Assembly (NCBI GenBank): GCA_001873995.1
Contig: MNVR01000021.1
Span: 1 to 64,000 of the forward strand
Origin: Candidatus Phelpsiimicrobium noxiivivens
GTDB taxonomy: Bacteria; Omnitrophota; Gorgyraeia; Velamenicoccales; Velamenicoccaceae
Direction: 5' to 3'
Length of the DNA: 64,000 nt
Shown: one piece after another, positions 1,963 to 61,463 of the stretch
How the letters are laid out: each line of letters starts with the position of its first letter
Numbering within the stretch: position 1 is the first letter of the stretch
Program-made: the position numbers and the translations under genes
The notes under the pieces: model-generated
The model's database searches: none
What the model was told of the DNA's origin: nothing
Seen by the model: the letters and a program-made list of their open reading frames with translations, nothing else

Positions 1963-3381
1963 TTAGATATATTGGAACTTCTTTTCGTAATTCAGTTCCA
2001 TGCCGTGGGGGAAGTCGCGGTAAGGGTAGATGATGATCTCGGCCTTTGCCGGGATGTTGGTAATAAGCACGTCGCGTATGTGGTTTTCCAATTGTTCCGA
2101 AAGTGGAGTTGTTTTTTTCGTCTGTATCTCAATCCTTAAGCCGGCCTTGCTGTTGGATAGTTTAAAATTTCCCGTGATGTTTTCGGCGATGGTCTTTTCT
2201 TTATAAAGCAGTTCTTTAACGAATTCAGGCCGCAGAGCAAAGCCCTCTTCAAGCGTTATTTTATCCCTGCCCCAGACAGCTGCCAAAGGCAGGCGGACAC
2301 GCGGTGTGTAATCCGCGTAATTAAATGCCGCGAGCGTGTCTTTGAGATGTTTAAAAGAAACGCAGATACCCTCGTCCTTGATGTTATAGCGCACAAGCGG
2401 TATCACGGCTTCTTCCTGGAGATTCGTGAGCACTATATCGGATAAGCCGCGTTCTTTAGGCGACTCCTCAACAAAGAACCTTAAAGGGTTGTATTGCATC
2501 AGGCTTGGCAGGTTGTCAGGGTCGGCTTTGATGAGAGCCTCTCTGAATTTCCTGTCGCGCTGTAAAAGCCGCCGTATTCTGATAAGTTCTTTTGTCTCGT
2601 AGAAAATGTTTAATCCGAATTCAGCTACCCCCAGAGACGAGCCAATAAGGCTTTTGGAATCGGGTTGGTCAGGGTCTACTCCTAATATATCGCAAAAATA
2701 AGTCCTTAAGTTTTCAGGCAGCATTTCTTCGCCTAAAACTATATGCATTTTTAATTTCTTCCACTCAATGCCTGATTCCGCGCCATCTTCAAGGCATTTT
2801 TTGACAAATGAGTTCTCTCCTATGAGTATGATCTGTTCGTATGAGGCGGCAAATGTCTTTATTGCGGATATGACTATGTCCGGCCGGACGCTTGTGTCTG
2901 CTATGGTGACGAGCGATGAGTGTATTTTAACGCCCATAGGCAGGCAGTTGATAAGCAGGGTCTTTTTTCCGCCCACATTGAAAATATAATCCAGCATGAA
3001 ATCAATTGTATCCTGGGACATGGCGGACTCTTTTTTATTGATAAGGCTGTAAGAGAAAAGTCCGCTGTGGCCGGAGCTTGAGACTATTTCGTGGATGTTG
3101 TTTATTTCGCTATCAACACAGAGCTTTTTAATATTGTCAGTGTAGAGCTTGAATGTCTTGTCTTTATCAAGGAGAGGAACCAACTTTTTAAAGTCTTCAA
3201 TAGTTTTGATGGAGGAGACGGGCGCATTGTGTTCTTTTAAGAATTGTTCGTAGGCAGGAACTTTTAAAGCGGCTCTTTGGAATGCCTTCAGGGTCTTTTT
3301 TTCAGAAAGCGCCTTGAGCTTTGTCGGTTCAAGCGAGGCAAGCATTTGTATTGTCAGGTATTTTTTAGTGCGGCGGAACAT
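1963..3381 (-). CDS. PaaK/CapK-like adenylate-forming enzyme
   Basis: The 472-residue protein resembles the phenylacetate-CoA ligase/coenzyme F390 synthetase branch of adenylating enzymes. It has an N-terminal helical region with VPAYEQFL, then an ATP-binding-like SSSGHSG loop (about residue 101) corresponding to the SSGTTG motif. LGEEMLPENLR (about 217) and a GSSLGVAEFG segment (about 247) follow, then a C-terminal mobile domain. Such enzymes activate a carboxylic acid as an acyl-adenylate and pass it to CoA or another acceptor. The substrate cannot be read from sequence. It is the last gene of the minus-strand operon carrying an outer-membrane protein and an ABC exporter, opposite acyltransferase genes, so a role in making an acylated product is plausible. 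The start at 3381 has no obvious Shine-Dalgarno. Confidence 0.7.
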   Translation of the reverse strand: MFRRTKKYLTIQMLASLEPTKLKALSEKKTLKAFQRAALKVPAYEQFLKEHNAPVSSIKTIEDFKKLVPLLDKDKTFKLYTDNIKKLCVDSEINNIHEIVSSSGHSGLFSYSLINKKESAMSQDTIDFMLDYIFNVGGKKTLLINCLPMGVKIHSSLVTIADTSVRPDIVISAIKTFAASYEQIILIGENSFVKKCLEDGAESGIEWKKLKMHIVLGEEMLPENLRTYFCDILGVDPDQPDSKSLIGSSLGVAEFGLNIFYETKELIRIRRLLQRDRKFREALIKADPDNLPSLMQYNPLRFFVEESPKERGLSDIVLTNLQEEAVIPLVRYNIKDEGICVSFKHLKDTLAAFNYADYTPRVRLPLAAVWGRDKITLEEGFALRPEFVKELLYKEKTIAENITGNFKLSNSKAGLRIEIQTKKTTPLSEQLENHIRDVLITNIPAKAEIIIYPYRDFPHGMELNYEKKFQYI

Positions 3382-17689: not shown

Positions 17690-17700
17690 TGAGACAGATC

Positions 17701-17735
17701 AATGAGACAAATCAAGCAGGATGATTTGTCTCATT
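17701..17735. repeat. GAGACAAATC palindrome, copy 2, at a convergent gene junction
   Basis: AATGAGACAAATCA (17701-17714) and its reverse complement (17722-17735) flank AGCAGGA. A partial unit GAGACAGATC precedes it. The palindrome overlaps the rpoN stop codon (17731-17733), so it would form the 3-prime hairpin of both convergent transcripts. Confidence 0.75.
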
Positions 17736-19477: not shown

Positions 19478-20041
19478 ATGAAGATATTTTATGGCATTGT
19501 TTTGGCGGGATTATTTTTGAACGTTTGTTCGTTTAATCGCGCGTGGGGAGAGGAGGCTCAGGTGGCAACAGGGACAATAGTGGTGTTGGAGACTGATCAG
19601 GGTAATATTGAATTGAAGCTTTTTCCGGAAACCGCCCCAAAGGCGTGCGAGAATTTTATAGGGCTCGTGAATAAAGGGTATTACAACGGGACTGTGTTCC
19701 ATCGCGTCATCAGGGGGTTTATGATCCAGGGCGGGGACCCTACTGCTACAGGAATGGGCGGGGAGTCATTTTTCGGCAGGCCTTTTGATGATGAGGTGAA
19801 GGCTGGCGTAGGGTTTGATAAAGCGGGCATCTTGGCTATGGCGAACGCCGGGCCAGGGACCAACGGCAGCCAGTTCTTTATCACGGTCGCGCCAACGCCG
19901 TGGCTTAATATGAAGCATACCATATTCGGCGAAGTCGTATCAGGCTATGATGTAGTAGAAAAGATAGTCGGCGCTCCTACGGAGCGCGGGGATAAACCGC
20001 TTAAGGAACAGAAGATAATTAAGGCTTATATAAAGGCCTAA
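19478..20041 (+). CDS. periplasmic peptidyl-prolyl cis-trans isomerase, cyclophilin type
   Basis: The 187-residue protein has a signal peptide (MKIFYGIVLAGLFLNVCSFN, then RAWGEE) and a cyclophilin fold. Recognisable segments are ENFIGLVNKGYYNGTVFHRV, FMIQGGDPT, NAGPGTNGSQFFIT and WLNMKHTIFGEV. These hold the catalytic Arg (FHRVI) and the substrate-binding Gln/Phe residues. It assists folding of exported proteins. An AAGG ribosome site precedes the ATG. The family-1 leader RNA begins eight bases after its stop. Confidence 0.92.
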   Translation: MKIFYGIVLAGLFLNVCSFNRAWGEEAQVATGTIVVLETDQGNIELKLFPETAPKACENFIGLVNKGYYNGTVFHRVIRGFMIQGGDPTATGMGGESFFGRPFDDEVKAGVGFDKAGILAMANAGPGTNGSQFFITVAPTPWLNMKHTIFGEVVSGYDVVEKIVGAPTERGDKPLKEQKIIKAYIKA

Positions 20042-20048
20042 GGATTGA

Positions 20049-20165
20049 CTCCTTGCTAACCCGTTTGTAAATATTAAGTGCATTCACTTAATATTTACCG
20101 CGCTGGCTTCGGTGTTGGTTTTGCAGGGAATAGATACCCACAGTATTTAAAACCAAGGAGGTCGC
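20049..20165 (+). promoter_or_regulatory. family-1 structured RNA leader, copy A
   Basis: This is the cleanest copy of a recurring leader. CTCCTTG (20049-20055) can pair perfectly with CAAGGAG (20054-20060 plus 100, i.e. 20154-20160), which contains the Shine-Dalgarno. Between them are a 14-bp perfect hairpin (20067-20080 with 20085-20098) and a second domain in which GGTTTT (20117-20122) pairs with AAAACC (20149-20154) around the core GCAGGGAATAGATACCC. Other copies (36512, 37178, 59309) keep the core and change paired positions together. The arrangement suggests control of ribosome access to the small gene at 20166. Ligand or signal is unknown. Confidence 0.7.
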
Positions 20166-20327
20166 ATGATGTGTTCCAAAATGCTTGGCGATTATTATTC
20201 CAGCTCGTATCTTTTGTTTACCGTGCAGATCATTTTTGTGCTTATGTTGTTCACGTGCCTCTTGGTTTCGCTTGTGCGTCAACGAGTGATGATAAATATA
20301 TTGAAAGAAATAAGGGACAAGAAGTAA
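20166..20327 (+). CDS. small membrane protein (53 aa) behind a structured leader
   Basis: ATG 20166 follows AAGGAGG (20155-20161) by four bases. The product has one long hydrophobic helix (about residues 14-38: SYLLFTVQIIFVLMLFTCLL) and a basic C-terminal tail (VRQRVMINILKEIRDKK). I recognise no family. It lies between cyclophilin and a cold-shock gene. Its strong ribosome site and the family-1 leader show it is a real, regulated gene. Single-helix proteins of this size often modulate a larger membrane complex; the partner is unknown. Confidence 0.65.
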   Translation: MMCSKMLGDYYSSSYLLFTVQIIFVLMLFTCLLVSLVRQRVMINILKEIRDKK

Positions 20328-23601: not shown

Positions 23602-23789
23602 GAAACAGTTTCCAACCTATTCGGGAACCTATTCGGGAAACAGTTTCCGACCTATTCGGGACACTGTTTCCGATCTATTCGGGAAAGTGGGCTAGTTGGA
23701 AAGAAAAAATACCCACTGTCCCGAACAACTTGGAAACAGTTTCCCGAACAACATGGAAACAGTTTCCCGAATAGGTTGGAAACTGTTTC
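23602..23789. repeat. large inverted repeat built from AAACAGTTTCC / CCTATTCGGG units
   Basis: The left arm starts at 23602 with GAAACAGTTTCCAACCTATT and repeats CCTATTCGGG four times with AAACAGTTTCC-like units between. The right arm (to 23789) is the inverted counterpart, with CCCGAACAAC, CCCGAATAGG and GGAAACAGTTTCCC. The outer 25 or so bases of each arm match perfectly. The RNA would fold into one long hairpin between the DUF2156 and rmuC genes. No open frame of interest lies in it. Confidence 0.85.
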
Positions 23790-35315: not shown

Positions 35316-36532
35316 GTTGTGAATTAAAAAATAAGATATATTGGGTTGGGGCTGTGGATCATAACGTCCGTGATTTCCATGGTTATATTACGCCGAACGG
35401 GACTTCTTATAACTCGTATTTAATAGTGGATGATAAGATAACTTTGGTAGATACTGTAAAAAAGGAGTTTGCCGCGTGCCTCCTTGGCCACGTGTCCGAG
35501 ATCATAGACCCCGCGAAAATAGATTACCTTATAGTTAATCACGTGGAGATGGACCATTCGGGCTCGATCGTTGATATCTTAAAAGTTGCCAAGAACGCCA
35601 AGATATTCTGTTCGGCAAAAGGCAAGGAAGGGCTTTTAAAACATTACCAGATAACCGGCAGGGAATTCAATGTTGTTAAGACAGGTGATACGCTTTCTTT
35701 GGGTAAGCGCACGCTGAAGTTCATAACAGCGCCGATGATACATTGGCCGGATAGCATGTTCACTTATTGTGTTGAGGACAAAGTCCTTTTGCCTAATGAC
35801 GCTTTTGGCCAACACTTGGCTTCGCCTAAGCGTTTTGCCGATGAAGTAGGAGAAGCATATTGTATGGAGGAGAGCGCTAAATATTACGCGAACATCCTTA
35901 TGCCGTTGGGTTCCATCATCGCGAAGAAAATAGATGAGATAAAGAGCTTAGGTATCCCCATTGATATCATAGGCCCCAGCCATGGCGCTATATGGAGAAA
36001 TAATATACCGGCCCTTATAAATTCTTATATGGATTGGGCGGTTTTTAAAGCGAAAGAGAAAGTAGTTATCGTATATGACACCATGTGGGAGTCCACGGAT
36101 AAGCTCGCCCGCCGCCTGACAGAACTTATAAATTCCGCGGGTGTTGATGTAAAGCTATATAATATTCGTAGATCCGACGGCAGCGCTATTGTCAGGGATA
36201 TTTTAGACGCGAAGGTGTTTTTGGTAGGTTCCCCGACATTAAACGCGGATATGTTCTGGACGGTTGGAGGGTTTTTGACTTATCTTCGGGGCCTTAAGCC
36301 AAAAAATAAAAAGGTAGGCATATTTGGTTCTTACGGTTGGGCTGAAGGCGCTTCTAAGGCTATAAGAAAGGAGATAGAGGCAATGGGGCTTGAGGTGATA
36401 GAGCCGCCTTTTGAGGTCAATTTTGTTCCTAGCCGAGAGGAGTTGAGTAAATTAGAGGAATATGCTAAGGTAGTTGTTCAGGCGGTGAGGGCCATAGGAA
36501 AAAACACTGATCCCTTGCCAACCCGCTTGTAA
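35312..36532 (+). CDS. flavodiiron protein (oxygen/NO reductase, FprA type)
   Basis: The 406-residue protein has a metallo-beta-lactamase domain with diiron ligands (VNHVEMDHSG, and later histidines in MIHWPDSMFTY and GPSHGAIW). A flavodoxin domain (about 255-400) has VVIVYDTMWESTDKLAR and GSPTLNADMFWTVGGFL. It reduces O2 to water or NO to N2O with electrons from rubredoxin, encoded two genes upstream. The last six codons (PLPTRL, stop) coincide with the 5-prime end of the family-1 leader of the next gene. Confidence 0.94.
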   Translation: MSCELKNKIYWVGAVDHNVRDFHGYITPNGTSYNSYLIVDDKITLVDTVKKEFAACLLGHVSEIIDPAKIDYLIVNHVEMDHSGSIVDILKVAKNAKIFCSAKGKEGLLKHYQITGREFNVVKTGDTLSLGKRTLKFITAPMIHWPDSMFTYCVEDKVLLPNDAFGQHLASPKRFADEVGEAYCMEESAKYYANILMPLGSIIAKKIDEIKSLGIPIDIIGPSHGAIWRNNIPALINSYMDWAVFKAKEKVVIVYDTMWESTDKLARRLTELINSAGVDVKLYNIRRSDGSAIVRDILDAKVFLVGSPTLNADMFWTVGGFLTYLRGLKPKNKKVGIFGSYGWAEGASKAIRKEIEAMGLEVIEPPFEVNFVPSREELSKLEEYAKVVVQAVRAIGKNTDPLPTRL

Positions 36533-36640
36533 ATTTTAAGCTATCACGCGTAAAATTTACTACGTTGGTTTGTCTGCCGGCAGGCAGGCGCCTACGGCGG
36601 AAATTTTGCAGGGAATAAAAACTTACAGTATACGAAACTA
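36512..36640 (+). promoter_or_regulatory. family-1 structured RNA leader, copy B (with inserted palindrome)
   Basis: CCTTG (36513-36517), the hairpin GTAAATTTTA / TAAAATTTAC, and the core TTTTGCAGGGAATAAAAAC with ACAGTATAC are conserved. A GC-rich palindromic repeat (TCTGCCGGCAGGCAGG and following) is inserted between the hairpin and the core. The element begins within the last codons of the flavodiiron gene and runs straight into a family-2 leader. The CCTTG strand could pair with CAAGG (36685-36689) at the ribosome site. Confidence 0.6.
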
Positions 36641-36697
36641 ATACCCGGCGCTTTATGGTATCGCGCCGGTGTGTGTCTACTACACAAGGAGGTTGTT
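36641..36697 (+). promoter_or_regulatory. family-2 RNA leader of the ferritin-like gene
   Basis: TAC-C-CGGCGC (36643 onwards) pairs with GCGCCG-GTG with the constant bulged C. GTGTGT and ACACA form the second hairpin, which runs into CAAGGAGG and the ATG at 36698. It follows a family-1 leader in tandem, the only such case in the window. Confidence 0.65.
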
Positions 36698-37171
36698 ATG
36701 GGAGAGAGATTCAGAAAGACATCGGGAGTGGATCTGAAAGAGATCATCGCGGACTTAAACAAGGCTTACTGCGATGAGTGGTTGGCTTTTTACGCATATA
36801 CGTATGCCGCTCAGGCAGTATCGGGAAGCGCCTACGAGGATATGCAGGAGATGTTAGAGAAAATAGCTAAAGATGAATTGGAGCACCAGTCAGAAGCGGC
36901 CGACATGATCATTAAGCTCGGCGGGATGCCAACGGCCAATTTTAACGATATAGAGAAGAACGCGAACGCGCCATTCCCTATGCCTCCTAAAAAGACCGAT
37001 GATTATGAGAAGATCATTGGGTTCGTTTTGGCAGCTGAAGGCGGAGCCATTGAGGCTTACAGGAAGATAGCCAAGAAGACCTTAGGTAAAGAAGACGTTG
37101 TCTATCAGTTAGCGGCGCATATTTTAGGCGAAGAGGTTCAGCACGAAGAGATATTCGAGAACCTGAAATAA
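36698..37171 (+). CDS. ferritin-like/rubrerythrin-family diiron protein
   Basis: The 157-residue four-helix protein has diiron-ligand motifs CDEWLAFYAYTYAAQ, KDELEHQSEAADM and EEVQHEEIFENL. It lacks the rubredoxin tail of classical rubrerythrins and is nearer to bacterioferritin/ferritin-like short forms. It likely stores iron or reduces peroxide in the anaerobic oxygen-defence set with rubredoxin and the flavodiiron protein. ATG 36698 follows CAAGGAGG by five bases; the GTG at 36671 lies inside the leader and is rejected. Two structured leaders in tandem suggest tight control. Confidence 0.88.
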   Translation: MGERFRKTSGVDLKEIIADLNKAYCDEWLAFYAYTYAAQAVSGSAYEDMQEMLEKIAKDELEHQSEAADMIIKLGGMPTANFNDIEKNANAPFPMPPKKTDDYEKIIGFVLAAEGGAIEAYRKIAKKTLGKEDVVYQLAAHILGEEVQHEEIFENLK

Positions 37172-37177
37172 GGAATA

Positions 37178-37300
37178 CCCCTTGCGAAAACGCTTGTAAA
37201 TTTTTACACGACATATTTGTGTAATAATTTACTGCGCTCGCTTCGGGATTGATTTTGTAGGGAATAGAAACCTACAATATACAAAATCAAGGAGATAAAA
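37178..37300 (+). promoter_or_regulatory. family-1 structured RNA leader, copy C
   Basis: CCTTG (37180-37184) can pair with CAAGG (37288-37292) at the Shine-Dalgarno. Between them are CGC-TT-GTAAATTTTTACAC / GTGTAATAATTTAC-T-GCG, then GGCTTCGG-type linker, and GATTTTG / CAAAATC enclosing GTAGGGAATAGAAACCTAC. The paired arms differ from copies A and D by matching changes on both sides. Confidence 0.7.
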
Positions 37301-37483
37301 ATGGCGAAAGTTACAGTAGATGCGTCTACGTGCGTAGGTTGCGGGCTTTGTGAACAGAATTGTCCTGATGTTTTTCAGGTCAAGGATGACGGTATCGCTT
37401 ATGTTAAATCACAGGAGTGCGGCAGCTGTGATCTAAAAGAGGTAGCCGGTATGTGCCCTGTTAACGCGATAACAGTAAGTTAA
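37301..37483 (+). CDS. ferredoxin, single [4Fe-4S] type
   Basis: The 60-residue protein has one cluster motif, CVGCGLCEQNCPDVF, with the distal ligand in GMCPVNAI, and an extra cysteine pair (CGSC) typical of monocluster ferredoxins of this class. It is the likely electron acceptor of the pyruvate:ferredoxin oxidoreductase encoded nearby. The ATG follows the AAGGAG of the family-1 leader by six bases. A terminator closes the unit. Confidence 0.93.
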   Translation: MAKVTVDASTCVGCGLCEQNCPDVFQVKDDGIAYVKSQECGSCDLKEVAGMCPVNAITVS

Positions 37484-38473: not shown

Positions 38474-38514
38474 TTGAATGAGACAAATCATCCTGCTTGA
38501 TTTGTCTCATTCAA
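38474..38514. repeat. GAGACAAATC palindrome, copy 3, at a convergent gene junction
   Basis: TTGAATGAGACAAATCA and TGATTTGTCTCATTCAA (17-bp arms) flank TCCTGCT. It lies exactly between the convergent radical SAM and SurA/PpiD genes and could act as a two-way 3-prime hairpin. Confidence 0.8.
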
Positions 38515-46721: not shown

Positions 46722-47656
46722 CTAAGCTAGAGATATTTTCTGGAAATGCTAATCCGCAGTTAGCTAAAGATATCTGCGCGGTGTTAGGCAAAAAGCTGGG
46801 CGGTATGATGGTGGAAAGGTTCAGCGAAGGAGAATGCCGCGTCAAAATAGACGACAATGTCAGGGGCAAAGATGTTTTCATCGTGCAGCCGACGTGTCCG
46901 CCGGTAAACGAAAACCTTATGGAGCTGCTTGTGATCATTGACGCGCTAAAGCGCGCTTCCGCGGGGCGTATTACCGCGGTCGTGCCCTATTACGGTTACG
47001 CGCGCCAAGATAGGAAAGATCAGCCGCGCGTGCCGATCAGCGCTAAACTCGTTGCCAATCTTCTTACTGTAGCCGGTGCTGACAGGATATTGACCATGGA
47101 CCTGCACGCCGGCCAGATACAGGGGTTTTTTGATATACCCCTTGACCACCTTTTCGCCGTAAACGTTTTTGTAGAGCATATCTCTAATAAGCTTAAACTT
47201 AAAGATTTTGTGGTCGTCTCGCCTGATGTCGGAGGCATTAAGACGGCGCGGGCGTATGCCAAGCGCCTTGGCGCGGCTCTCGCTATAGTTGATAAACGCC
47301 GCGTATCTCCAGAAAAAGCCGAAGTGATGAATATATTAGGAGAGGTCTCAGGTAAGAACGCCATTCTGGTGGATGACCTGGTAGCCACAGGCGGCTCTCT
47401 TTTGGAAGCGGCCCACGCTTTGAAAAAGGCCGGCGTCAAAAAGATATACGCCGCCGTAGTCCATGGCGTGCTATCGGGCGATGCCATGAAAAATGTTGAG
47501 AATTCTATTTTAGAGGAATTGATCATTACCGATACCATACCTCTGGATGCTGGCAAGAGAAGCCCTAAGATAAAAGTTTTGACCGTGGCTCCGCTTTTAG
47601 CGGAGGCGATAAAGAGGATACACCAGGAAGAGTCTATTAGTTGTTTATTTGATTAA
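46718..47656 (+). CDS. prs: ribose-phosphate pyrophosphokinase
   Basis: The 312-residue PRPP synthase has EIFSGNANPQLAKDICAVLG, FSEGECRVKID, YYGYARQDRKDQPRVPIS (ATP flexible loop), TMDLHAGQIQGFFDIPLDHL and the PRPP-binding AILVDDLVATGGS. It supplies PRPP for hisG, pncB and nucleotide synthesis. It is coupled to glmU by overlap. A family-2 leader begins six bases after its stop. Confidence 0.96.
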   Translation: MTKLEIFSGNANPQLAKDICAVLGKKLGGMMVERFSEGECRVKIDDNVRGKDVFIVQPTCPPVNENLMELLVIIDALKRASAGRITAVVPYYGYARQDRKDQPRVPISAKLVANLLTVAGADRILTMDLHAGQIQGFFDIPLDHLFAVNVFVEHISNKLKLKDFVVVSPDVGGIKTARAYAKRLGAALAIVDKRRVSPEKAEVMNILGEVSGKNAILVDDLVATGGSLLEAAHALKKAGVKKIYAAVVHGVLSGDAMKNVENSILEELIITDTIPLDAGKRSPKIKVLTVAPLLAEAIKRIHQEESISCLFD

Positions 47657-47661
47657 CGTAA

Positions 47662-47722
47662 ACACCCCGCGCTAATCGGAATTGCGCGGGTGTTGTGTCT
47701 TTCTACACAAGGAGATCATAAA
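47662..47722 (+). promoter_or_regulatory. family-2 RNA leader of rplY
   Basis: ACAC-C-CCGCGC (47662-47672) pairs with GCGCGG-GTGT (47684-47693), leaving one bulged C. The tip is AAT-CGGA-ATT. TTGTGT (47693-47698) and ACACAA (47705-47710) form a second hairpin that runs into AAGGAG. It is the type example together with 50346 and 61404. Confidence 0.75.
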
Positions 47723-49399: not shown

Positions 49400-49858
49400 A
49401 TGGCGAATTTGAACAAAGTTCTTCTTATCGGCAATCTGACACGTGACCCGGAATTGCGCTATACGCCGGGTGGGACGGCTGTTGTAAATCTACGTATGGC
49501 TACGAACCGCCGCTATAAAGATAAGGCGGGCGAGGCCAAGCAGGATGTATGTTATATGACAGTGGTAGCTTGGGATAAGCAGGCTGAGGTGTGTAATCAG
49601 TATCTTCATAAAGGAAGCCCGCTTTTTGTGGAAGGCCGGCTTCAATCAAGGTCATGGGATGGGCCGGACGGCAAAAAGAGATCAGTCCTTGAGATCCGCG
49701 CTGAAAGAGTGCAATTTTTGGGCGCGCCTTCGTCAAAGGCTAACGCGGCCCCTGAAGACCATGCCGCTGTGAAGGAAGAAAAAGCGGCAGATGATGTTAT
49801 AAGCACCGGCCCCGATGAGGTGACGTGGGGCCAGGATGCGGCAGAGGGCGCGGGCTAA
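49400..49858 (+). CDS. ssb: single-stranded DNA-binding protein
   Basis: The 152-residue protein has an OB fold (LNKVLLIGNLTRDPELRYTP, VVNLRMATNRRYKD, FVEGRLQSRSWDGPDGKKRS) and an acidic disordered tail. The tail ends TWGQDAAEGAG rather than the usual DDDIPF-like tip, so the standard partner-binding end is missing or altered. GGGGG lies nine bases before the ATG. Confidence 0.93.
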   Translation: MANLNKVLLIGNLTRDPELRYTPGGTAVVNLRMATNRRYKDKAGEAKQDVCYMTVVAWDKQAEVCNQYLHKGSPLFVEGRLQSRSWDGPDGKKRSVLEIRAERVQFLGAPSSKANAAPEDHAAVKEEKAADDVISTGPDEVTWGQDAAEGAG

Positions 49859-49910
49859 CTTTGGAAGGAATAAAAACCTACAGTATGCAACCTGCCTGCT
49901 GGTAGGCAGG
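49858..49910 (+). promoter_or_regulatory. family-1 leader fragment plus GC palindrome upstream of rpsR
   Basis: TTTGGAAGGAATAAAAACCT (from 49858) and ACAGTATGCAA match the 3-prime core domain of family-1 leaders. The long hairpin and the 5-prime CCTTG are absent; ssb coding sequence lies there instead. The expected CAAGGAG end is replaced by the palindrome CCTGCCTGCTGGTAGGCAGG (49891-49910) and GAGTTAAG. Confidence 0.55.
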
Positions 49911-49932
49911 AGTTAAGAAAGGAAATTAAATC

Positions 49933-50325: not shown

Positions 50326-50345
50326 TTAAATGACAACGTAAGTTG

Positions 50346-50403
50346 ACACCCGGCGCTAATCGGAATCGCGCCGGTGTTGTGTTTTTTACACAAGGGGTGC
50401 ATC
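50346..50403 (+). promoter_or_regulatory. family-2 RNA leader of rplI
   Basis: ACAC-C-CGGCGC (50346-50356) pairs with GCGCCG-GTGT, again with one bulged C. TTGTGT / ACACAA follows and abuts AAGGGG. Compared with the rplY copy, the C-G pairs of the stem are exchanged on both strands. Confidence 0.75.
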
Positions 50404-54663: not shown

Positions 54664-54766
54664 CACCTGGCCATTATGGACACCCCGCGCTAATTTGAAT
54701 TGCGCGGGTGTGCGCTCGGTAGCGTAAATTAGGCCAGTGTTGTGTCTGCACACAAGGAGGAGTCAG
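54664..54766 (+). promoter_or_regulatory. family-2 RNA leader of skp, with a nested second copy
   Basis: An outer stem CAC-C-TGGCC (54664 onwards) / GGCCA-GTG encloses a complete inner element ACAC-C-CCGCGC / GCGCGG-GTGT (54680-54711) with tip AAT-TTGA-ATT. The TTGTGT / ACACAA hairpin and CAAGGAGG then follow. Both stems keep the bulged C. It is the clearest case of one copy sitting in the loop of another. Confidence 0.7.
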
Positions 54767-59254: not shown

Positions 59255-59308
59255 CTTGACAAACTCATGGAATGTATTTAGAATAAAAACTTGAAGATGA
59301 AAAGTTAT

Positions 59309-59431
59309 CCCTTGCCTATACGCTTGTAAATTTTAGCCCGGCGTACCCGGGCATAAAATTTACTGCGCAGGCTTCGGGATCAACTTTGCAGGGAATAAAT
59401 ACCTAATAATATACAAAGTTAAGGAGGCGGT
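59309..59431 (+). promoter_or_regulatory. family-1 structured RNA leader, copy D
   Basis: CCTT (59310-59313) can pair with AAGG (59421-59424). The hairpin GTAAATTTTA-GCCCGG / CCGGGC-A-TAAAATTTAC (59326-59363) is followed by GGCTTCGG, then AACTTTG (59382-59388) / CAAAGTT (59414-59420) enclosing GCAGGGAATAAATACC. The last stem differs from copies A and C at matched positions. AAGGAGG lies five bases before the ATG. Confidence 0.7.
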
Positions 59432-59710
59432 ATGGTTAGAAAAACAGTTGTTACGAAAAGAATAGAGTTTAAAATTGCTGCTCCTAAAGCCAATCGAGTT
59501 GGCGTGGCCGGAGATTTTAACGGCTGGAAACCTGACAGCCTGACAGCTCAAAAAGACAGAAACGGTGTTTGGAAAGCTCAAGCCACTGTTCCTACAGGGA
59601 CTTATGAATACAAATTTGTCATTGACGGCTCTTGGATCACTGACCCGGCATGCTCCCGCAGGACCATCAATTCCTTTGGCACTGAAAATTCGGTGCTTGT
59701 GGTTAAATAA
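59432..59710 (+). CDS. stand-alone glycogen-binding domain protein (CBM48/AMPK-beta type)
   Basis: The 92-residue protein is a single carbohydrate-binding module: FKIAAPKANRVGVAGDFNGW, then WKAQATVPTGTYEYKFVIDG and WITDPACSRR. The aromatic Trp residues are the usual glucan contacts. No catalytic domain is attached. Stand-alone modules of this kind occur in several phyla and may target other proteins to glycogen or act as sensors. A family-1 leader precedes it and a terminator follows, so it is a single-gene unit. Confidence 0.88.
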   Translation: MVRKTVVTKRIEFKIAAPKANRVGVAGDFNGWKPDSLTAQKDRNGVWKAQATVPTGTYEYKFVIDGSWITDPACSRRTINSFGTENSVLVVK

Positions 59711-61034: not shown

Positions 61035-61403
61035 ATGGCCAAGAAAATATTAGTTGTAGATGATGAAAAACAGATAGTTTGTCTTTTCGCGGAATTTTTG
61101 GAGAAGACCGGCTTTGAAGCGGTTGTCGCTTTTGGCGGCGAGAAAGCCATTGAGATCTTAAACGCGGACACTGTTATAGACCTTGTGATATTAGACGTTA
61201 GGATGCCGGGAGTAAGCGGTATCGACGTAGTCAAGGCATTGAAAAAAACAAAAAGAGATATACCGGTTATCATAATAAGCGGTAATATAGGCATTCAGGG
61301 CGAGCTCGAGCAGTTGAAAAAATTGGGTTGTACGGATATTTTCAGCAAACCCGTTGACCTATTTGTGCTTTTAAAGTGTATTAATAAAAAGTTGGAAAAT
61401 TAG
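61035..61403 (+). CDS. single-domain response regulator
   Basis: The 122-residue receiver has D9-D10, phosphorylatable D54 (LVILDVRMPGVSG), the IIISGN switch and the FSKPVDLF lysine. It has no output domain. It starts a group with two exported/membrane proteins and a second receiver. A family-2 leader starts at the base after its stop codon. Confidence 0.92.
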   Translation: MAKKILVVDDEKQIVCLFAEFLEKTGFEAVVAFGGEKAIEILNADTVIDLVILDVRMPGVSGIDVVKALKKTKRDIPVIIISGNIGIQGELEQLKKLGCTDIFSKPVDLFVLLKCINKKLEN

Positions 61404-61463
61404 GCACCCGGCGCTAATCGGGATCGCGCCGGTGTTGTGTTTTCTACACAAGGGGGATGAGAT
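61404..61463 (+). promoter_or_regulatory. family-2 RNA leader of the coiled-coil protein gene
   Basis: CAC-C-CGGCGC (61405 onwards) / GCGCCG-GTG with bulged C, loop AAT-CGGG-ATC, then TTGTGT / ACACAA running into AAGGGGG. It begins directly after the receiver stop codon at 61401-61403. Confidence 0.75.

Follow-up and report, generated by a model that had tools for sequence, protein, structure and literature searches.

The window, the whole 64,000-nucleotide stretch of DNA analyzed here, is contig C19 of a 39-contig, 1.56-Mb genome. It contains four copies (A to D) of a structured element, the family-1 element, each found where the original prediction had placed a leader (20049, 36512, 37178, and 59309), together with a damaged fifth copy (Table 1). 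An exact GNAGGGAATARAWAC core lies at 20123, 36608, 37257, and 59388; with up to 2 mismatches, the window holds 8 matches against 1.98 expected, a number reached in 0 of 100 shuffles, and this core marks approximately 20 copies genome-wide. Copies A and C begin a few nucleotides past the stop codon of the upstream gene, which ends at 20041 and 37171, respectively, and copy C carries P1 ACCCC/GGGAT, P2 GCGA/TCGC, and P5 GATTTTG/CAAAATC with the Shine-Dalgarno (SD) sequence AAGGAG. Copy B is matched by the covariance model in two separate pieces, a first domain (36515-36572) and a P5 part (36604-36637), and has no adjoining SD of its own. The SD is carried by the second leader that adjoins it, which consists of CCCGGCGC..GCGCCGG followed by TGTGT..ACACA directly 5' of AGGAGG and serves a ferritin-like gene (Pfam Ferritin). 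In the fifth copy, the P5 5' arm and loop (CTAACTTTGGAAGGAATAAAAACCTACAGTATGCAA) are broken by the palindrome CCTGCCTGCTGGTAGGCAGG.

Table 1. Family-1 copies and an adjoining leader, in window coordinates
Feature	Position	Strand	Remarks
Copy A, whole element including SD and ATG	20047..20168	+	113.8 bits, own-genome search
Copy A, P1	20048-20052/20111-20115		
Copy A, P2	20055-20058/20104-20107		ACCC bulge 20059-20062
Copy A, P4 hairpin	about 20067-20099		
Copy A, P5	20116-20123/20148-20155		
Copy A, SD AAGGAGG	20155-20161		ATG 20166
Copy B, family-1 element split by palindromic insert	36509..36640	+	Insert about 36569-36600
Second two-hairpin leader, adjoins copy B	36641..36700	+	Family D2; hairpins 36641-36693; ATG 36698
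Copy C, whole element	37175..37303	+	121.5 bits; ferredoxin (Fer4) ATG 37301
Fifth copy, damaged	about 49855-49920	+	Weak model match
Copy D, whole element	59305..59434	+	110.2 bits; CBM48/glycogen-recognition protein ATG 59432

Other repeats were seen in the same window. A second leader family, intercistronic and with two hairpins, occurs at 36635-36692, 47656-47713, 50340-50397, and 61398-61455 (partly also at 54680 and 31529); it reads ACACCCGGCGC..GCGCCGGTGT and then TGTGT..ACACA directly 5' of AGGAG or AGGGG. It precedes, for example, genes that we take from their sequences to be L25-like and L9-like, and the family-1 element is found at the L25-like gene in sister genera. Short direct and inverted repeats (GAAACAGTTTCC.., families D6 and D12) lie in or adjoin a gene start at 23602-23787, and a terminator-like 36-nt palindrome, TTGAATGAGACAAATCATTCTGTTTGATTTGTCTCA, is present in three copies (195-230, 17698-17733, and 38474-38509) at or near gene ends.

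We built a covariance model, searched Omnitrophota genomes with it, and compared the element with Rfam. This revealed a large family that is absent from Rfam: as the original prediction of a new structured family implied, there was no Rfam 15 match at the gathering threshold and none at the element up to an E value of 10. The model found 66 matches in the window's own genome at E ≤ 0.01 (76 at E ≤ 1) and 63, 50, 92, and 70 matches in the family relatives G003, G004, G005, and G006, respectively; the remaining relatives had 1 to 15, and three sister genera carry 63 to 92 copies. A model of domain 1 (described below), built on copies from several families, had matches in 81 of 334 sampled genomes of the phylum, 80 of them in the same class and spread over about 30 families; per-genome counts from this model were made among the matches listed and are lower bounds from 15 upward. 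Scanning one genome per species across 84,980 species for an exact pattern gave 81 loci, all labeled Omnitrophota save one in Auribacterota and one in an unlabeled metagenome-assembled genome. No element was found in a plasmid collection at the sensitivity used, and none of the papers covered by a literature search joined Omnitrophota and riboswitches. The distribution is patchy, ranging from 0 to about 90 copies per genome. The family-1 element, previously undescribed, is best read as class-specific, high-copy, and modular.

Domain 1 is predicted to form a long hairpin, composed of P1, an internal loop UU/UUC, P2, a one-sided AAAC bulge, P3, and an exchangeable P4, which is itself a long hairpin. 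It is followed by P5 (TAACTTTG/CAAAGTTA and variants) with a weak apical helix, P6. The original prediction had claimed covarying stems, and in 15 clean genome copies the 35 proposed pairs were indeed 92.1% paired. These copies (alignment A1) were aligned from sequence alone, as were those of alignment A5; alignments A2 to A4 were fitted to the model, and their pairing percentages therefore lean toward it. In the 15-copy set, both sides had changed in 18 pairs, which was matched by 0 of 500 shuffles, sliding one arm destroyed the pairing, and 56 cells were doubly changed versus 16.2 ± 3.3 in shuffled data. Covariation was strong in P1 (variants ATCCC/GGGAT and ACTCC/GGAGT), P2 (GCCT/AGGC, GCGA/TCGC, and GCTT/AAGC), P3 (GC/GC and AC/GT), and P5. 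Across families, the domain-1 model showed 73 doubly changed cells versus 20.8 ± 6.0 in shuffled data, and the asymmetric internal loops UU/UUC and AAAC were conserved. RNAalifold, run unaided, recovered the same main helices with P6 off by one. P6 is the weakest helix (83% paired in the 15 copies and 65 to 71% in larger sets) and may not exist as drawn. When single sequences were folded, copy C and loci L243 and L087 formed tandem hairpins as expected; copies A and D gave competing folds, and in L031 the SD was paired.

The predicted hairpin arms GGTTTT/AAAACC, GATTTTG/CAAAATC, and AACTTTG/CAAAGTT do pair, and their place is in the arms of P5. The accompanying GCAGGGAATARAWACC core is likewise present, at the apical end of hairpin P5, but it is not indispensable, as unrelated hairpins take its place in other genomes. 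With its own arms, P5 forms at least 7 of 8 pairs in 95% of both classes of copy defined below and all 8 in 127 of 159 copies; once arms are exchanged between copies, 8/8 pairing falls to approximately 20%. Counting P1 (minus its outermost pair), P2, P3, and P5 together (~4,080 cells), we found 3,877 Watson-Crick pairs, 67 GU pairs, and 74 AC mismatches, whereas tRNAs at the same loci, chosen by a tRNA finder, gave 21 GU and 0 AC. Selection at the RNA level predicts that GU is favored, and the symmetry of GU and AC is contrary to in-place selection on the RNA strand; it is the outcome expected from neutral decay of perfect palindromes or from palindrome correction at the DNA level. Because GU and AC are so nearly equal, we do not claim the covariation as proof of a selected RNA. 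These counts do not support strand-specific covariation of the RNA; the argument for RNA selection is carried by the placement of the element and the class-2 SD signal described below, and a DNA-level repeat origin is left open.

The copies were predicted to be leaders. They do sit at ribosome sites, but they are intercistronic, mostly right after the preceding gene, instead of promoter-proximal. All 34 copies with long flanks in the window's own genome have a co-directional upstream gene, and 24 of these begin no more than 12 nt past its stop codon; a co-directional upstream neighbor was also found for 26 of 27 copies in G005 and, by a crude ORF call, for 19 of 30 in G006. Because copies start at stop codons, the element occupies the gap between two genes, mostly with no space for a promoter 5' of it, one exception being copy D, which has a sigma-70-like TTGACA-17-TAGAAT upstream at 59256-59284. 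Downstream, P5 runs exactly up to AAGGAG (SD plus a close start in 41 of 67 copies of this genome) or exactly up to ATG (11 of 67). Both classes recur in G005 and G006, most copies in the three genera end at SD or ATG, and other families have the same layout, with 3' ends ..CTCATTAAGGAGG and ..CTCATTAA, the latter directly before ATG. The copies are therefore oriented and abut SD or ATG, unlike a repeat spread evenly over gene interiors and gene ends. At least five copies run up to the 5' end of a tRNA gene, namely, two tRNA-Ser genes here, one tRNA-Ser gene in G021, and genes in G005 and G006 that we take, from our own reading of the sequence, to be tRNA-Tyr-like. Tandem copies occur as well. 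At L451, L471, L470, L188, and L148, copies adjoin tRNA genes in antisense, and in L451 and L471 an apparent 5' tRNA half lies on the opposite strand at the element end. A replication-strand bias of insertion was considered and dropped: 65 of 69 copies in G006 are in the leading orientation, but genes themselves are distributed 255:103 (crude call), leaving no clear excess.

The proposed tight coupling to the ribosome site is upheld by the exact ending of P5 at SD or ATG and by a signature in one class of copies. In class 1, P5 borders the SD. In class 2, the ATG-abutting copies, an SD-like tetramer directly precedes the P5 3' arm in 19 of 37 copies versus 8 of 122 others (odds ratio 15, P = 7e-9). 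This run (GAGG, AGGG, GGAG, and similar) lies in an unpaired bulge about 8 nt 5' of the ATG, and pairing with the anti-SD is stronger in class 2 than in the SD class (-3.7 versus -0.7 kcal/mol, P = 3.5e-7); about half of the class-2 copies are without a clear SD. Since the SD-like run sits just before the 3' arm and P5 is still paired, the class-2 3' arm would be the SD-to-AUG spacer and would have to open for initiation. Of all the evidence, the class-2 signal speaks most strongly for the element as a probable part of the next gene's ribosome site.

Masking of the SD by pairing of CTCCTTG with CAAGGAG, by contrast, does not hold. The 5' tetramer varies among CTCC (51 copies), CCCC (18), and TCCC (17) while the SD stays GGAG; an SD of GGGG goes with CTCC in 6 copies, and 69 of the counted copies have no SD match. 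The 5' CTCC or TCCC strand pairs instead with GGAG or GGGA 3' of the first hairpin, forming P1, and the P1 partner follows each change. Because the 5' strand covaries with its P1 partner and not with the SD, masking is unsupported. No covariation was detected for an alternative SD-hiding fold, and in single sequences the 5' strand paired with the SD at most in CTCC-type copies (such as A and L031). Translation may be gated by another route, through the AU-rich P5 that in one class separates the SD from the AUG.

Pfam searches with about 50 downstream proteins returned housekeeping functions with no common pathway. The list, which is not exhaustive, covers glycolysis (GAPDH and two phosphofructokinases), SAM and riboflavin (SAM synthetase and lumazine synthase), secretion (SecD and SecG), and the ribosome (L31, L32, and S11), together with acyl carrier protein, AccA, ketol-acid reductoisomerase, PanD, BioY, cobalamin adenosyltransferase, ferredoxin, a ferritin-like protein, superoxide dismutase, ATP synthase delta, gyrase A, and ParB. 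Further downstream genes found in other families, named by eye from their sequences, presumably encode EF-Tu, DnaK, SMC, S10, and a ribosome hibernation factor. The gyrase A gene of this genome (L101:293-1801, on contig C32) contains a LAGLIDADG domain and therefore probably an intein. The idea of a metabolite sensor is not supported: 66 to 92 copies per genome stand before unrelated housekeeping genes and some tRNA genes, and the supposed core is exchangeable. As the downstream genes share no pathway, a one-ligand riboswitch is unlikely.

Comparison of genera showed that positions are kept while the element itself is exchanged. Among downstream genes, there were 7 to 9 reciprocal best hits per genus pair (about 50 genes each), against our own chance estimate of 1 to 2, and genes for S11, L31, L32, S10, metK, ribH, and SMC recur with the element. 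Elements at orthologous genes resemble one another no more than randomly chosen copies do (mean rank, 0.45). Within one genus (G004, G006, and G007), many sites retain the element and some copies are near-identical, but at the S11, metK, and S10 genes a wholly different subtype lies between conserved flanks; in the genus of G002 and G005, trxA and ribH likewise have the subtype swapped and the position kept. For same-subtype pairs between species of one genus, stems differed by 6%, loops by 10%, the upstream flank by 19%, and third codon positions by 23%, figures that lean toward conservation because the pairs were picked for similarity. What is constant is the layout, together with a P1-P2 core that contains the UU/UUC loop and the AAAC bulge. 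Other parts vary: G006 often swaps the P5-P6 domain for a plain hairpin (e.g., TTAATCCGCCAGAGGCGGATTAAGGAGG), and in G005 P4 is filled by that genome's own palindromes. At L113, L215, and L218 (own genome and G006), P1 and P5 enclose a third module, CCCC-AGAAA-GGGGTAGACC..GGTCTAA, and the gaps at these loci are therefore mosaics of hairpin modules. Near-identical copies were also seen at different genes, and empty or remnant sites exist in sister genera in a genus-level comparison.

The element also occurs on viral contig L483 (IMGVR_UViG_3300025669_004029), probably from a phage of Omnitrophota. A complete copy at 3010-3110 has a head-scaffolding-like gene upstream and the gene for the major head protein downstream; it begins right after the stop codon and ends TTAAGGAGG before the ATG. 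Such a copy fits use as a putative expression part.

The original observation of a structured, ribosome-site element was right; its proposed mechanism, a ligand switch with masking by CTCCTTG, found no support. The element is best described as an intercistronic one that would provide the next gene with its ribosome entry region, and it looks like a general gene-expression part and not a metabolite sensor. Tentatively, and with slightly less than even confidence, we read it as a lineage-specific intercistronic module that would supply the initiation region for whichever gene comes next in a row of co-directional genes. In domain 2, P5 would touch the SD with its 3' foot (class 1) or, in class 2, would use its 3' arm as the spacer that separates a bulged SD from the AUG. 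The folded gap would set the next ribosome site apart from the upstream coding RNA, the next gene would get its own P5-gated entry, and the two genes would be uncoupled; perhaps the fold also marks a point of transcript cleavage or protection. Structure, placement, the class-2 SD signature, conservation of position, and slow in-place divergence are observed features; from them we infer that the element works at the RNA level, that translation is raised or gated by it, and that P5 is the gate. Against the module reading stand the GU/AC symmetry, the copies at tRNA 5' ends, where translation is irrelevant, the antisense abutment of some tRNA genes, the patchy distribution, near-identical copies at different genes, and the class-2 copies in which no clear SD is seen.

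The GU/AC symmetry also points toward a dispersed modular palindromic repeat, spread by some enzyme that prefers SD- or ATG-like targets, in which structure is kept for mobility or by DNA-level palindrome correction and effects on genes are secondary. Enterobacterial REP/BIME and ERIC sequences are intergenic palindromes that, like the family-1 element, are intercistronic, present in many copies, and form mosaics with other palindromes; as far as we know, they are neither gene-oriented nor tied to the SD. Copy number here was not related to Y1/RAYT transposase genes (Y1_Tnp in 22 of 30 genomes), which gives no support to a link with a single-stranded-DNA transposon of the Y1 type. Pneumococcal BOX repeats, judged mostly parasitic, are also short, interspersed, modular, and lineage-restricted, with exchangeable subunits and strong RNA folding potential, and they can change the expression of co-transcribed genes (PMC3049150), as the family-1 element may. 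A repeat would account for the exchangeable modules and palindromic inserts, the tandem arrays, the random resemblance of copies at orthologous genes, the abutment of antisense tRNA ends that resemble SD or ATG, and an AAGGA-type motif on the 5' flank of some copies (36 of 69 in G006 versus a 14% background); patchiness and near-identical copies at different genes likewise suggest spreading. Unlike BOX, however, the family-1 element has one orientation to genes, abuts SD, ATG, or tRNA precisely, occupies the same genes across genera and families with slow in-place divergence, extends across a class, and holds the SD within the bulge of one class; the plasmid collection gave no match, and the element is retained before a phage head gene. 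We regard a mobile repeat as the less likely account but as a rival to be taken seriously.

A ligand- or protein-responsive regulator, in which domain 1 senses one global signal and P5 switches access to SD or AUG at many housekeeping genes, appears improbable. The conserved asymmetric loops beside a ribosome-site helix, the class-2 SD within the P5 bulge, and a set of central genes resembling a growth-rate regulon are consistent with it, and translational riboswitches share the structured domain with covarying stems and a ribosome-site helix. They differ in that the family-1 element has no shared target pathway and no Rfam relative, is intercistronic and present at 66 to 92 copies per genome, including some before tRNA genes, has an exchangeable apical core and P4, and lacks an alternative pairing backed by covariation. 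Candidate leaders of ribosomal protein genes have been surveyed (PMC7247131), and the family-1 element does precede S10, S11, L31, and L32 genes; since dozens of unrelated genes carry the same element, it is not autogenous control by one ribosomal protein. An element that forms 5' ends, through a promoter or an RNA cleavage signal ending at the P5 foot and giving short-leader or near-leaderless mRNAs and tRNA 5' ends, would bring the SD, ATG, and tRNA classes under one rule but is very unlikely: a sigma-70-like TTGATT-18-TACAAT in the P5 domain (26 of 67 copies here versus about 5 in shuffles) is weak and mostly confined to this genome, being found in 0 of 69 copies in G006, rarely in G005 and G004, and by inspection not in other families, and a promoter leaves the covarying arms unexplained. 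Three further candidates were set aside: a CsrA site (ANGGA in the loop plus SD), as many copies have an AAAGA loop and class 2 has no second site on inspection; an integron attC-like site (R and L boxes, variable tip), as inspection found no R-box GTTRRRY and the copies are dispersed; and an intrinsic terminator, as none was called at copies C and D and in other families P1 is followed by the run UUAAUUCG.

Judged against riboswitch numbers in general, the family-1 element would have one of the highest copy numbers per genome of any structured cis element in bacteria, and its phylum is known almost entirely through metagenomes. It offers natural interchangeable intercistronic parts, with P4 and P5 modules exchanged while the sites stay the same, and the copy before a phage major head gene suggests value for strong expression. 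Under the module reading, separate tuning of neighboring co-directional genes would become testable. We consider it a long shot that P5 gates housekeeping genes genome-wide on a single global signal read by the UU/UUC-AAAC domain; if true, this layer of translational control would place one RNA architecture before roughly 5% of the genes in some Omnitrophota, borrowed by a phage.
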